From: Halovivax ruber XH-70
GTDB taxonomy: Archaea > Halobacteriota > Halobacteria > Halobacteriales > Natrialbaceae
DNA: 64,000 nt
NCBI RefSeq assembly: GCF_000328525.1
Contig: NC_019964.1
Coordinates: forward strand, 2,728,001 to 2,792,000
Reading direction: 5' to 3'
In this document: in pieces, positions 47,876 through 53,436 of the stretch
Numbering within the stretch: position 1 is the first letter of the stretch
Layout: every line of letters starts with the position of its first letter
The notes under the pieces: generated by a model
Databases searched by the model: none
The model's input: the letters and a program-made list of their open reading frames with translations, nothing else
Told to the model about the DNA's origin: nothing
Program-made: the position numbers and the translations under genes

Positions 47876-48733
47876 ATGAGCACGGCCCTCGTCAGGCTGG
47901 TCGATCGCGTTCGTCAGCCCGAGTACACCGGTGCGAATCGCTGCATTCCCTGTACGATCGTAAACGTCGTCCTGGCCCTCGCGTTTGCCATCGCCGTCGG
48001 CGGCGTCGTGGGAATCGTCGGCAGGGCGGCGACGGGCGCACTCGCGGCCAGCGTGGTCCTCGTCGTGTCGCTGCTGGCCATCTACGTCCGTGGCTATCTC
48101 GTCCCGGGCACACCAACGTTCACCAAGCGGTACTTCCCGGATCGCGTCCTGGCGTGGTTCGACAAGGAACCCGCACTGGCGTCCCAGAACGACGGGCAGA
48201 CGCAGGGCGACGAAGGGAGCGGGAAGTTCGACCCCGAACGCATCCTCGTCGACGGTGGCGTCACCGTCCCCTGTGAAGACGAAGAAGACCTCTGTCTCGC
48301 CGACGGCCTGCGCGAACGCTGGCGGAGCCACGTCGTCGACGTGCGCCAGGGTGACCGGGTCGAACAGGTCGCCGCCTTCGTCGAACGCGACCCCGAGACG
48401 ATCACGCTGGACGACGACCCGTCCGAAGACCGCATCGTCGCCGTCGGGACGGAGGGCGGCGCCGTCGCCCACTGGGAGTCGGAAGCCGCGCTTGTGGCCG
48501 ATCTGGCCGGCGCTCGGCTCCTGAACGAGCAACTCCCAACCTGGGCTGACCGACCGCTGCACGAACGCGGGCAGATCGTCGGTGGCCTCAGAGCGTTCCT
48601 CGAGACCTGTCCGGCCTGCGACGGGCAGATTTCGATCGACGAGGAGACCGTCGAATCGTGCTGTCGATCCTACGAAGTCTACGCCGTCACCTGTGACGAC
48701 TGCGGGGCCCGACTCCTCGAAGTCTCGGCGTGA
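47876..48733 (+). CDS. Haloarchaeal membrane protein with C-terminal zinc site
   Basis: About 285 residues from ATG 47876 (MSTALVRLVDRVRQPEYTGANRC). CIPC near residue 26-29, two membrane helices (about 30-50, 55-75), a long soluble region with FDPERILVDGGVTVPCEDEEDLCL, and a C-terminal zinc ribbon: CPACDGQIS, CCRSYEVYAVTCDDCGARLL. No named family recognised. Directly upstream of sufS, 127 bp apart, same strand. An extension to 47843 is not supported. Confidence 0.75.
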   Translation: MSTALVRLVDRVRQPEYTGANRCIPCTIVNVVLALAFAIAVGGVVGIVGRAATGALAASVVLVVSLLAIYVRGYLVPGTPTFTKRYFPDRVLAWFDKEPALASQNDGQTQGDEGSGKFDPERILVDGGVTVPCEDEEDLCLADGLRERWRSHVVDVRQGDRVEQVAAFVERDPETITLDDDPSEDRIVAVGTEGGAVAHWESEAALVADLAGARLLNEQLPTWADRPLHERGQIVGGLRAFLETCPACDGQISIDEETVESCCRSYEVYAVTCDDCGARLLEVSA

Positions 48734-48860
48734 GTTAACCACACGCCGGCATAGAAGGGACCAGCGAGGCCACGCGAGGACGGTTGGTCACCGTCATCGA
48801 CGCCGTCGAATCGCGCCGCGACCGAAGGAGTGTTTTCCCTGCAGCCCCAACCTGCGAGTA

Positions 48861-50108
48861 ATGAGTCACCAGCGCGTCGAGCCGCTCGACGTCGAAGCGA
48901 TCCGGGCCGAGTACCCGATCTTGGACCAGTCGGTCGACGGCACGCCGCTCGTCTACCTCGATAGCGCGGCAACGGCCCAGACCCCAGATCCGGTCGTCGA
49001 CGCCATGTCCGACTACTACCGGGAGACGAACGCAAACGTCCACCGCGGCATCCACCACCTGAGCCAGCAGGCGTCGGCCGCCTACGAGGAGGCCCACGAC
49101 CGCGTCGCCGAGTTCGTCGGCGCCAGCGGCGGCCGGAAGGAGCTCGTTTTCACGAAGAACACCACCGAGAGCGAGAATCTGATCGCCCACGCGTGGGGGC
49201 TTCGCGAACTGGGCCCCGGCGACGAGGTCGTCCTCACGCAGATGGAACACCACGCCTCGCTGGTCACCTGGCAGCAGGTCGCGATGCGCACCGGCGCCGA
49301 CGTGAAGTACATCGAGGTCACCGAGGACGGCCGCCTCGACATGGACCACGCCCGCGAGTGCATCACGGACGACACCGCGATGCTCTCGGCGGTCCACGTC
49401 TCGAACACGCTGGGAACGGTCAACCCCGTGAACGAGCTGGTCGACCTCGCCCACGAGCACGACGCGCTGACATTCATCGACGGCGCACAGGCGGTGCCGA
49501 CCCGCCCCGTCGACGTCGAGGCCATCGACGCCGACTTCTACGCCTTCTCCGGGCACAAGATGGCCGGCCCGACGGGGATCGGCTGTCTCTACGGGAAGGA
49601 GGCACTCCTCGCGGAACTCGACCCCTACCTCTACGGCGGCGGCATGATCCGGAAGGTCACCTACGACGACTCGACCTGGGGTGAGGTCCCCTGGAAGTTC
49701 GAACCCGGCACGCCGCCGATCGCCGAGGCCGTCGGGCTCCACGCCGCGGTCGACTACCTGGAGGAGATCGGGATGGAGCGTGTCCAGGCCCACGAGGAGC
49801 ACCTCGCCGAAGCGGCCTACGACGCCCTCTCCGACATCGACGGGCTGACCATCTACGGCCCCGAACCCGGGCCGGATCGGGCTGGCCTCGTGAGCTTCAC
49901 ACTGGAGAACGTCCACGCCCACGACCTGGCGTCGATCTGTAACGACCACGCCGTCGCTATCCGCGCGGGCGACCACTGCACCCAGCCGCTGCACGACACC
50001 CTCGGCGTCGCGGCGACGGCCCGTGCCTCGTTCTACGTCTACAACACCGTCGACGAGATCGAGCCGCTCGTCGAGGCGATCGAAGACGCCCAGTCGCTGT
50101 TCGCCTGA
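48861..50108 (+). CDS. sufS: Cysteine desulfurase SufS
   Basis: About 415 residues from ATG 48861 (MSHQRVEPLDVEAIRAEYPILDQ). PLP-fold type I: IRAEYPILDQ, NANVHRGIHHLSQQA, PLP lysine in FYAFSGHKMAGPTGIG, and the active Cys in RAGDHCTQPLHD. Takes sulfur from cysteine for iron-sulfur cluster assembly. Its partner SufU is 3.3 kb away on the same strand instead of next to it. Confidence 0.96.
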   Translation: MSHQRVEPLDVEAIRAEYPILDQSVDGTPLVYLDSAATAQTPDPVVDAMSDYYRETNANVHRGIHHLSQQASAAYEEAHDRVAEFVGASGGRKELVFTKNTTESENLIAHAWGLRELGPGDEVVLTQMEHHASLVTWQQVAMRTGADVKYIEVTEDGRLDMDHARECITDDTAMLSAVHVSNTLGTVNPVNELVDLAHEHDALTFIDGAQAVPTRPVDVEAIDADFYAFSGHKMAGPTGIGCLYGKEALLAELDPYLYGGGMIRKVTYDDSTWGEVPWKFEPGTPPIAEAVGLHAAVDYLEEIGMERVQAHEEHLAEAAYDALSDIDGLTIYGPEPGPDRAGLVSFTLENVHAHDLASICNDHAVAIRAGDHCTQPLHDTLGVAATARASFYVYNTVDEIEPLVEAIEDAQSLFA

Positions 50109-50496: not shown

Positions 50497-50769
50497 CTAC
50501 GAAGACGACGAGCCAGAGAGCTCGTTGACGTCTTCCACGGCGAGCGGACAGCCACACGGGGCGGCCCGCGCGTCCATCGGCCCGCGGATCGTGAACGACA
50601 CGACTGGCGTGCCACACTGCGGACACCGCGACAGGCTCGAAGCTCCCGCGTCGCCCTCCCGGCCGTCGCGAGGCCGGTCCTCACGATCGTCGCGACCACG
50701 GTCGTCGTGAGGCGGTGCCTCACCGTCGCCACGATTACCAGCGTCGCGACTCGGCGTTCGATCAGTCAC
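50497..50769 (-). CDS. Small haloarchaeal zinc-ribbon protein
   Basis: About 90 residues from GTG 50769. Arg/Asp-rich disordered N-terminus, then CPQCGTPVVSFTIRGPMDARAAPCGCPLAVEDVNEL, a Cys-rich ribbon with CxxC and CxC. The pattern (R-C-P-x-C-G-T-x-V...RGPxDxxAxPCG) recurs in haloarchaeal hypothetical proteins. Start codon uncertain; the frame is open upstream to 50895. Role unknown. Confidence 0.6.
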   Translation of the reverse strand: MTDRTPSRDAGNRGDGEAPPHDDRGRDDREDRPRDGREGDAGASSLSRCPQCGTPVVSFTIRGPMDARAAPCGCPLAVEDVNELSGSSSS

Positions 50770-50869
50770 GCCACCCACCCCGCGTGACCCCCACCACCGA
50801 TGCGTGGAGTGACACCGAACACAGACGCGAGGCTGGTGAAAACGGGCGATTCGACGGTCGTGCGAGAGG

Positions 50870-50877
50870 TTTATATC
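50870..50877 (+). promoter_or_regulatory. TATA box of the putative structured RNA
   Basis: TTTATATC flanked by GC-rich sequence, centred about 25 nt before 50898 where folded sequence begins. Confidence 0.55.
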
Positions 50878-50896
50878 TCGCGGGTGGGTACGCAAT

Positions 50897-51015
50897 CATG
50901 GCTTCGGCCTATGCGGCTGGAAGCCACAGTCTCGGGTGCTTTGGACACCCGGGACGTTTTCGTGCCCGTCCCCCAGGCGAGTGGAGACTGTTCGGCTTCC
51001 AGCCATCAGTATGGG
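50897..51015 (+). ncRNA. Candidate structured RNA of unknown family
   Basis: About 110 nt that folds extensively. A UUCG-capped hairpin begins it (CATGGC TTCG GCC-T-ATG, near 50897-50913). A 19-bp helix joins 50915-50933 to 50984-51004 (GGCTGGAAGCCACAGTCTC with its complement, interrupted only by a 2-nt bulge TC). Inside are hairpins GGGTG/CACCC (50934-50938 with 50946-50950) and GGGACG/CGTCCC (50951-50956 with 50967-50972). A 45-codon frame (ATG 50898, stop near 51035) is present, but its codon use is poor in G/C at third positions unlike the neighbours, so RNA is favoured. It does not match tRNA, RNase P or SRP RNA as I know them; H/ACA guide RNA is possible. Confidence 0.5.
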
Positions 51016-51434
51016 TTATTGTTACTTATATCTAACTAGTAACCATGTAATTAAGCATCTAAATTGAGACGGCGACGCTGTCTACGACGGGGTAAGACTG
51101 GGACGAGATTATTAGAGAGAAAGAGGATAAAGAAGGTAGATCAGTTGGTTTCATGAAATCGGCGAGATGCACACAACGACATCGTGACAGACAGCGTCCT
51201 CAGCCCCTAGGGGTCACCCCAGACAGAAGTACCCCTGGCGTCGAGGTCGATCTCGACAACTTCAGAAGGATCCTTTGGAGGTGAAAATCGGCAAAATATG
51301 GCCGAGTACGGCCGCATCTACTACCGTTTTAGACAGTTCCTTGAAGAGATACTCACAAATCCTCACGGAACGAGAGCGATAAAATGGTTTCCCGGCCAGA
51401 ACCTTCATCGTAGCTTACTCTCAACCCAGATGGT
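51016..51434. other. AT-richer, palindrome-rich stretch before the lipoprotein gene
   Basis: About 420 bp with clearly lower GC than the surroundings. It contains several short palindromes: CCCCTAGGGG near 51205, GTCGAG-N6-CTCGAC at 51240-51257, AAGGATCCTT near 51267 and GGCCG-N4-CGGCC near 51301. No convincing gene. It may hold further RNA or be remnant DNA of transfer. Confidence 0.5.
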
Positions 51435-51959: not shown

Positions 51960-53252
51960 TCACTCCAATAGATACGTCCCCGGCGTGTACCAGTCCCGTT
52001 CGATCGTCGCCCAGTCGTCGTGGTCCAGCGGGCCGTTCGAGCCGTCGGAGAAGCCGTAGTGATCGAGCGGCGCGTTGTAGTTCATGACGCTCGGGTACTC
52101 GGCGAAGGAGTACGTTTCGCTGTCGACGCCGCCGAAGTCACGGTTCGTCAGGCCGAGCGAGTGGCCGAGTTCGTGCATGACGGTCGAGCCAGTGGCGTCA
52201 CTCCGCGAGTCGTCGGCGACGAGCATAGTGCCGGATCGGGCCAGCCCGAGGACGACGGTGCCGTAGCCACCCTGGTCCGAGTCGATCGAGTCGGCGATCA
52301 GGAGGTAGTGGTAGCCGTAGCCCTCGTTGTCGAAGTACGTCGACTTGATCGACGGGAGGTCGTCCTCGAAGCTGGTCGACGACGCGTGGGGGATCGAGTC
52401 GTCGCTCCGCACGAAGTGGAGGTCGACGCCCGTCGACCCGTCCGGGTTCTCGATCGGCGCATCGGCGAACTCGTTCGTCACGCGCCCGGCTTCGAGCCAG
52501 CCGAGTGACTGCCCGCTCATCTCGTCGACCTCGACGTAGACGTCGTACCGGAGCGGATCGGCGTCGGGGAGTCGATCGGAGGCGTGGACCTCCATGCCAT
52601 CCCAGAGGCCGTCGCCATCGGTATCCCGGCGCTGGGGATCCGTCCCGTGCTCGACCTCCGCCCCGTCCTCCAGCCCGTCGTCGTCCGTATCGGCGACGGT
52701 CGGGTCGGTCCCGTACTCGTCGATCTCGGCTTCGTCCGTGAGGCCATCGTCGTCGGTGTCGACAGCGAGCGGGTCCGTGCCGTACTCGTCGACCTCCTCG
52801 CCGTCGTCGAGGCCGTCACCGTCCGTGTCGGCGGCGAGCGGGTCCGTCCCGTGCGTGGTCACCTCCGCCCCATCACGGAGGCCGTCGTCGTCCGAATCGG
52901 AATCCGTCGGCGCCGTCCCGTATTCGTCGACCTCCGCACCGTCAGTAAGCCCATCACGGTCCGTGTCGGCGACGAGCGGATCCGTTCCGTGCGTGGTCAC
53001 CTCCACCCCGTCGGCCAGTCCGTCACCATCCGTATCGGCAACGAGCGGGTCAGTCCCGTACTCGTCGACCTCCTCGCCGTCGTCCAGCCCGTCGCCGTCC
53101 GTGTCCGCGGAGAACGGGTCAGTCCCCTGGTCGAGTTCCGCGACGATCGGCGTTGCGTCCCCGTCGACGTCGACGACGTTGGTCGTCGCCACGACGCCAC
53201 TGGTGAGGAGGCCGAGCAAGAAGAGGCCGACCAGCACGCCGCGCGTATTCAT
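51960..53252 (-). CDS. Secreted metalloprotease-like protein with thrombospondin type 3 repeats
   Basis: About 430 residues from ATG 53252 (MNTRGVLVGLFLLGLLTSGVVATT, signal peptide or anchor). Residues 43-226: eight copies of a 23-residue calcium-binding unit G-T-D-P-x-x-x-D-T-D-x-D-G-L-x-D-G-x-E-V-x-x-Y/H. The C-terminal half has YVEVDEMSGQ, and MHELGHSLGLTN. The metzincin zinc motif is HExxHxxGxxH/D; here the eleventh position is Asn, with Asp two residues later. Probably calcium-stabilised in high salt. Activity uncertain. Confidence 0.82.
   Translation of the reverse strand: MNTRGVLVGLFLLGLLTSGVVATTNVVDVDGDATPIVAELDQGTDPFSADTDGDGLDDGEEVDEYGTDPLVADTDGDGLADGVEVTTHGTDPLVADTDRDGLTDGAEVDEYGTAPTDSDSDDDGLRDGAEVTTHGTDPLAADTDGDGLDDGEEVDEYGTDPLAVDTDDDGLTDEAEIDEYGTDPTVADTDDDGLEDGAEVEHGTDPQRRDTDGDGLWDGMEVHASDRLPDADPLRYDVYVEVDEMSGQSLGWLEAGRVTNEFADAPIENPDGSTGVDLHFVRSDDSIPHASSTSFEDDLPSIKSTYFDNEGYGYHYLLIADSIDSDQGGYGTVVLGLARSGTMLVADDSRSDATGSTVMHELGHSLGLTNRDFGGVDSETYSFAEYPSVMNYNAPLDHYGFSDGSNGPLDHDDWATIERDWYTPGTYLLE
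52575..53126 (-). repeat. Eight 69-bp tandem repeats inside the metalloprotease-like gene
   Basis: Each repeat codes for the 23-residue thrombospondin type 3 unit. Copies alternate D-E-Y and T-T-H ends and differ at synonymous positions, so they have diverged since duplication. The array is a candidate for length variation by recombination. Confidence 0.9.
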
Positions 53253-53436
53253 CAGTACCCAACCCTGAGTGTCCTCGACGGTAAGAATTCTGGCCGACTG
53301 ACCTGTAGTCGCCAGCAGATAACTCACCCCCGCCGCCGGGATCGATCCCCGCCAGCGTAACGGAGTCAAACGCCACCGACGGCGACGGTCGCCGACGGCG
53401 CAATCCTTTTTGCCGGACCGGCCGAACGGCTATCAA

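Follow-up and report, generated by a model that had tools for sequence, protein, structure and literature searches.

Within the window, by which we mean the whole 64,000-nt stretch of Halovivax ruber XH-70 DNA analyzed here, a segment between sufS/sufU accessory genes folds unusually well and was proposed in a first-pass annotation to be a possible new structured RNA. The locus thus raises the questions of whether such an RNA is likely to exist, which strand carries it, and what it may do for the genes around it.

Strand and promoter of the structured segment

Recomputation on the sequence reproduced the 19-bp helix described earlier, in which 50915-50933 pairs with 50984-51004 with a single 2-nt bulge. 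The plus strand folds unusually well (-59.9 kcal/mol, z = -4.41), and none of 200 shuffled sequences folded equally well. The minus strand gave an equally unusual fold (-54.9, z = -4.77), so that folding of a single sequence does not discriminate between the two strands. Comparison of related copies does. When 83 copies were read on the minus strand, the ratio of G-U/U-G to A-C/C-A combinations was 20:1 in P1a and 18:2 in P2, with P3 and P5 being uninformative as to strand (1:1 and 3:3). In a second alignment, of 68 distinct copies on the minus strand, 97.5% of cells are paired, and 87 of these pairs are wobbles. The large excess of G-U over A-C across copies places the RNA on the minus strand.

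The promoter points the same way. In 149 copies, a minus-strand TATA box lies at a fixed distance of 26-30 nt upstream of the first stem, with 96-99% conservation per base and A as the fifth base in 73%, and position -11 is A or T in 97%. This arrangement agrees with the haloarchaeal promoter layout of a TATA box and a -10 WW element (PMC4983044). A clear CGAAA-type BRE was not seen upstream of the 149 copies. The plus-strand TATA promoter suggested previously, GTTTATATC, forms the loop of the P5 hairpin (50862-50881), which lies within the minus-strand ORF1. The motif [TC]ATAAA is absent at this site in 34 of the 149 copies, as compared with the minus-strand TATA box retained in 149 of 149, and a plus-strand promoter was rejected on this comparison. 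Taken together, the fold itself is real, but its placement on the plus strand could not be maintained in view of the wobble asymmetry, the promoter, the conserved AUG and the downstream genes; in place of a 110-nt plus-strand unit, we see the minus-strand 5' leader of a longer message. The RNA is most likely the minus strand from about 51003 to 50900, leading a two-gene operon whose transcription is predicted to start at 51001-51003, judging from the distance to the TATA box (Table 1).

Table 1. Features assigned to the window copy of the leader and its operon (positions within the window)
Feature	Position	Strand	Remark
TATA box TATAA, leader promoter	51026..51030	-	-30 to -26 from first G of P1
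Leader RNA	50900..51003	-	covariance-model match, 125.3 bits, E 1.1e-31
P1 5' strand GGAAGCC	50994..51000	-	extended outward by GGCU in window copy
GGCUUCC, P1 3' strand common to P4	50919..50925	-	three-strand changes
P1b 5' strand ACAGUCUC	50984..50991	-	pairs with 50926-50933
P2 hairpin	50951..50972	-	loop ends GAAA
P3 hairpin GGGUG-UCCAAAG-CACCC	50934..50950	-	stem nearly invariant
Hypervariable P3 tip	50939..50945	-	paralogue and orthologue comparison
P4 hairpin GGCUUC/GAAGCC	50900..50925	-	ends at AUG; incompatible with lower part of P1
P5 hairpin GCGAGA-UAUAAACC-UCUCGC within ORF1	50862..50881	-	A-U swapped for G-C in 31/68 copies
ORF1, 45 codons, MIAYPPARYKPLARPSNR...	50762..50899	-	AUG and frame kept in paralogues; stop overlaps ORF2 start
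ORF2, 90-aa CPxCG..GPxxA..PCGC zinc-ribbon protein, GTG start	50497..50769	-	third-position bias, synonymous excess across family, family search

Distribution and conserved fold of the leader family

The segment has relatives in its own genome, and plain DNA comparison detected it in 22 of the 61 genomes searched. A covariance model built from 30 copies found 24 full-length copies in the H. ruber XH-70 genome and 25-35 in each of four congeners. Within the family Natrialbaceae, the matches listed cover 26 of 29 genera and 89 of 125 genomes; 70 of 195 genomes of the order Halobacteriales were matched. Matches beyond the family were weaker (E about 1e-3 to 1e-13), and most of those inspected are laid out alike, with an A/T-rich promoter followed by P1, which stands at the start, and then by P3, P4 and the AUG. 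Leader copies are present on Natrialbaceae plasmids. No leader match was found in phage records and no PHROGs match for ORF2, and an origin from phages was set aside. About a dozen divergent leaders occur within some 170 kb of one contig, possibly a plasmid (G233 C7; L197, L204, L211 and others), where they precede MGCRKCGC zinc proteins and PadR-like regulators. Elsewhere, a divergent leader of another family (L205, G162) adjoins sufS/sufU homologues, which recalls window positions 48582-50108 and may reflect either chance or an ancient linkage, and another (L230, G017) lies upstream of an ORF resembling, by eye, a tyrosine recombinase.

The first-pass annotation had called for a search of Rfam and for covariation among relatives. 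No Rfam 15 family matched the window at its curated gathering score, and a local search at E <= 10 returned chance matches only, the best being mir-1990 with 17.9 bits against the 63 required. The sole match over seven relatives was an unrelated tRNA, and neither hammerhead nor other self-cleaving ribozyme families were matched in the window, the locus or the seven relatives. We found no literature report of such a haloarchaeal leader in a search that covered mainly open-access journals. Compensatory changes, in turn, are present among the relatives' copies; together with the multicopy family and the lack of an Rfam family, they bear out the suggestion of a possible new structured RNA.

The elements follow in the order P1 (GGAAGCC..GUCUC / GAGAC..GGCUUCC), P2, whose sequence is variable and whose loop usually ends in GAAA, P3 (GGGUG / CACCC), P4 and AUG. 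Across 68 distinct copies, two-sided changes occur at 11 pairs, as compared with 5.7 in shuffles (0 of 500 reaching 11), and fill 87 cells against 21.5 in shuffles, while pairing halves when the partners are slid by one column. The alignment was fitted to the model, which biases these counts towards it; a separate parse, with a free search for P2 in each copy, gave the same picture. In P5, G-C replaces A-U in 31 of 68 copies, and each change alters an amino acid, for which reason P5 is probably retained as a hairpin and not as a peptide. Two additional hairpins are inserted in the P2 region of two copies, L002/L057 in the own genome and L029 in G004. A pseudoknot of J1/2 with the P2 loop appeared convincing by eye in single copies and was abandoned because permutation revealed no excess (3.22 observed, 3.29 shuffled).

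Downstream genes and the proposed translational switch

The AUG directly 3' of P4 opens ORF1, which is mostly 28-55 codons long and often M(I/F)...GYKRPAR-like. Behind ORF1, 119 of 149 copies have ORF2, which encodes a small two-Cys-pair protein and whose start, in most of these copies, overlaps the stop of ORF1, as ATGA or GTGA in 88. A zinc ORF2 was not found in 26 of the 149. Substitutions in ORF2 number 572, 384 and 1272 at codon positions 1, 2 and 3, and the protein is, on this comparison, under purifying selection. The corresponding figures for ORF1 after codon 15 are 401, 552 and 437, which does not support a conserved ORF1 peptide beyond that codon.

Four types of copy were distinguished in the own genome: A (the window copy), B (MKSVER..CYRCDRDV..CCPDC), C (MGRYDYDEP..) and D. 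In type D, represented by the two copies L058 and L059, the zinc-ribbon protein is an in-frame extension of ORF1, resembling a fusion of ORF1 and ORF2, and in another haloarchaeal family (f17) the P4-adjacent AUG is itself the first codon of a SWIM-like protein, which marks this AUG as a real start. The latter protein scored 17.0 bits (E 0.0044) against the PF04434 gathering score of 19.6, and is thus called SWIM-like only. Behind leaders of other families lie SWIM-like proteins (directly), MGCRKCGC zinc proteins, PadR regulators (PF03551) and others. No downstream protein of types A-D reached a Pfam or NCBIfam cut-off, and in a PADLOC defence search ORF2 matched no model and the SWIM-like protein matched one, PDC-S62, weakly.

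Four RNA-bearing genomes also carry type A ORF2, which was not found in three RNA-lacking genomes; one genome (G005) had an ORF2 match without an RNA match. Cys49, Cys52, Cys72 and Cys74 are invariant in 15 ORF2 sequences. ORF2 qualifies as a small C(P)XCG protein with two Cys pairs, the second being CGC and not CxxC, and is predicted to bind zinc. In size and in its two Cys pairs it resembles the small C(P)XCG zinc-finger micro-proteins of Haloferax volcanii (PMC11241148, PMC10716476, PMC6562870), for which we found no literature report of a shared structured leader. Termination-reinitiation at overlapping gene pairs is known experimentally in H. volcanii (PMC6728339), and the leader operon resembles such coupled pairs in that the stop of ORF1 and the start of ORF2 overlap as ATGA/GTGA. 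It differs from them in that ORF1 keeps its frame but not its peptide after codon 15, as if for coupling. Two ORF2 relatives (G066:C1:3188383-3188532 and 3182039-3182170) contain in-frame stop codons, as if decaying. A minus-strand ORF of 469 aa (51960-53369), located between the leader and sufU, carries DxDxDG-type repeats and, after them, a HELGHSLG metalloprotease-like motif.

GGCUUCC doubles as the 3' strand of P1 and the 5' strand of P4, so that P1 and P4 are mutually exclusive. Changes in all three strands occur (GGAAACC or AGAAACC / GGUUUC / GAAACC), with both partners altered where the shared strand reads GGUUUC; independent cases are few and mostly from one genus. In 96 of 141 copies, the lower stem of P4 consists of 5-6 bp; it contains mismatches in types B and C. 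The P1 state is more stable than the P4 state, with a median difference of 3.0 kcal/mol and one of 8.7 kcal/mol in the window copy.

The strand, the promoter position, the conserved fold, the shared strand, the ORF1/ORF2 overlap and the selection on ORF2 emerge from the sequence comparison itself. We consider it probable, at roughly 0.6, that the minus-strand leader, as a member of a dispersed haloarchaeal family, controls translation of the small zinc-ribbon operon as a two-state switch. Transcription would start at the base of P1, and the RNA would fold into the P1-P2-P3 junction, whose P1 3' strand could alternatively pair with the bases just upstream of the AUG to form P4. With P1 closed, the AUG of ORF1 would be free for ribosomes to initiate, and those reaching the ORF1 stop would begin again at the ORF2 start that overlaps it; once P4 has formed, its helix would abut the AUG and hinder initiation. 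We infer the switching in cells, which state is ON, and a signal choosing between the states, which might be a metabolite, a metal, a protein or an RNA.

Because P1 and the AUG-ending P4 exclude each other, a riboswitch-like translational switch is the best mechanism for the leader, and switching is predicted. Like translational riboswitches, it is a conserved structured 5' leader upstream of a gene, with two exclusive stems of which the second touches the start codon, a likeness that is weaker in types B and C. The conserved junction and the strand common to two stems are shared with switching leader RNAs generally, and this architecture is, as read from the alignments, the anatomy of a switch. 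Unlike known switching leaders, however, it has neither a known ligand nor an Rfam family, and no ligand is implied by the downstream genes; it also departs from them in its dozens of copies per genome, the added coupling ORF and a hypervariable hairpin tip.

A leader of the same operon without two states, acting either as a structured, constitutive 5' UTR with a protective role for the message or as a protein-binding site, is the most serious competitor, although we regard it as clearly less probable than switching. The protein bound could possibly be the zinc-ribbon product, as feedback. The fold, promoter and gene linkage fit such a leader equally, the switching being the inferred part, P1 dominates in the window copy, and the proteins it accompanies may be able to bind nucleic acid; a static leader, however, has no need of the shared strand and its three-strand changes. 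We think it unlikely that the segment is mainly a DNA-level element, namely a dispersed repeat spread by duplication or mobility, with palindromes acting as DNA and RNA structure as a by-product. The numerous copies on chromosomes and plasmids, the restriction of type B similarity in the own genome to a unit of about 520 bp, and the unusually variable hairpin tips are in its favour. On the other hand, the wobble asymmetry and the fixed-distance promoter indicate a transcribed RNA, ORF2 is under purifying selection, and the window copy retains its position beside sufS in two congeners. Moreover, unit ends differ from pair to pair in a comparison not aimed specifically at terminal repeats.

The free-standing plus-strand RNA of about 110 nt originally proposed is very improbable. 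The plus strand does fold strongly and has a TATA-like sequence about 26 nt upstream of ATGG, but most G-U pairs would become A-C mismatches on it, types B and C carry CAAAAAGG where the TATA box is expected, and the minus-strand promoter is much better conserved. We therefore prefer the two-state leader. To our knowledge, structured leaders have hitherto been thought untypical of haloarchaea, for which reason the family would represent a substantial new RNA class. Its leader RNAs, on the minus strand in the window, most likely act, through a coupling ORF, as translational switches of small zinc-finger genes. The class occurs in most genomes of the window's family, in up to 35 copies per genome, upstream of zinc-finger and regulator genes. 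If confirmed, it would amount to a large RNA-controlled regulon for haloarchaea, offer access to dozens of zinc-finger micro-proteins that are as yet uncharacterised, and serve as a clear test case for the question why a single hairpin tip is scrambled in all copies of an otherwise frozen RNA.

Variability of the P3 tip

The tip of P3 consists of 6-7 nt between the nearly invariant GGGUG and CACCC. Among eight near-identical copies in one Natrinema genome, the tip differs at 59.5% of sites per pair, as compared with 13.6% for third codon positions of ORF2, 14.0% for the tail of ORF1 and 0-4.5% for bases flanking the tip, and none of 490 other 6-nt alignment windows was as variable. The tip likewise approaches saturation, at 49-59% per column and with conserved stems, in four further paralogue sets and among orthologues of the window copy, where just 1 to 12 other windows equalled it; most of these fall in the P4 tip, in sequence preceding the promoter or in downstream sequence. 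All 22 P3 tips scored in the own genome are distinct, and tips are scrambled between copies (e.g., L127-L133 and L137-L145) with some 70 identical flanking bases. Nor are the tips random: of 70 distinct 6-nt tips, 44 have C..A or U..G as their end bases, and end bases that could form a Watson-Crick pair hardly ever occur. We found that 5 of 10 tips of SWIM-type copies recur exactly among window-family tips, against 1.5 expected from base composition (P 0.007).

This pattern could reflect either hypermutation of the hairpin tip or selection acting on the identity of the tip. One hypothesis, which we hold as speculative and rather unlikely, is that the copies are copy-specific switches in which the P3 tip serves as an identity tag under diversifying selection, paired with or read by a trans partner; a single genome would then hold two dozen separately addressable leaders on one scaffold. 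Within its own transcript, the P3 tip has no excess of complements in any of seven regions. Inversion of the tip found no support as an explanation: reverse-complement pairs occur in the whole set, but none among the eight near-identical Natrinema copies. The 7-nt tips look like anticodon loops, a resemblance only. The P4 tip (window 50906-50919) is the next most variable element in several paralogue sets, and the P4 stem keeps its pairing.
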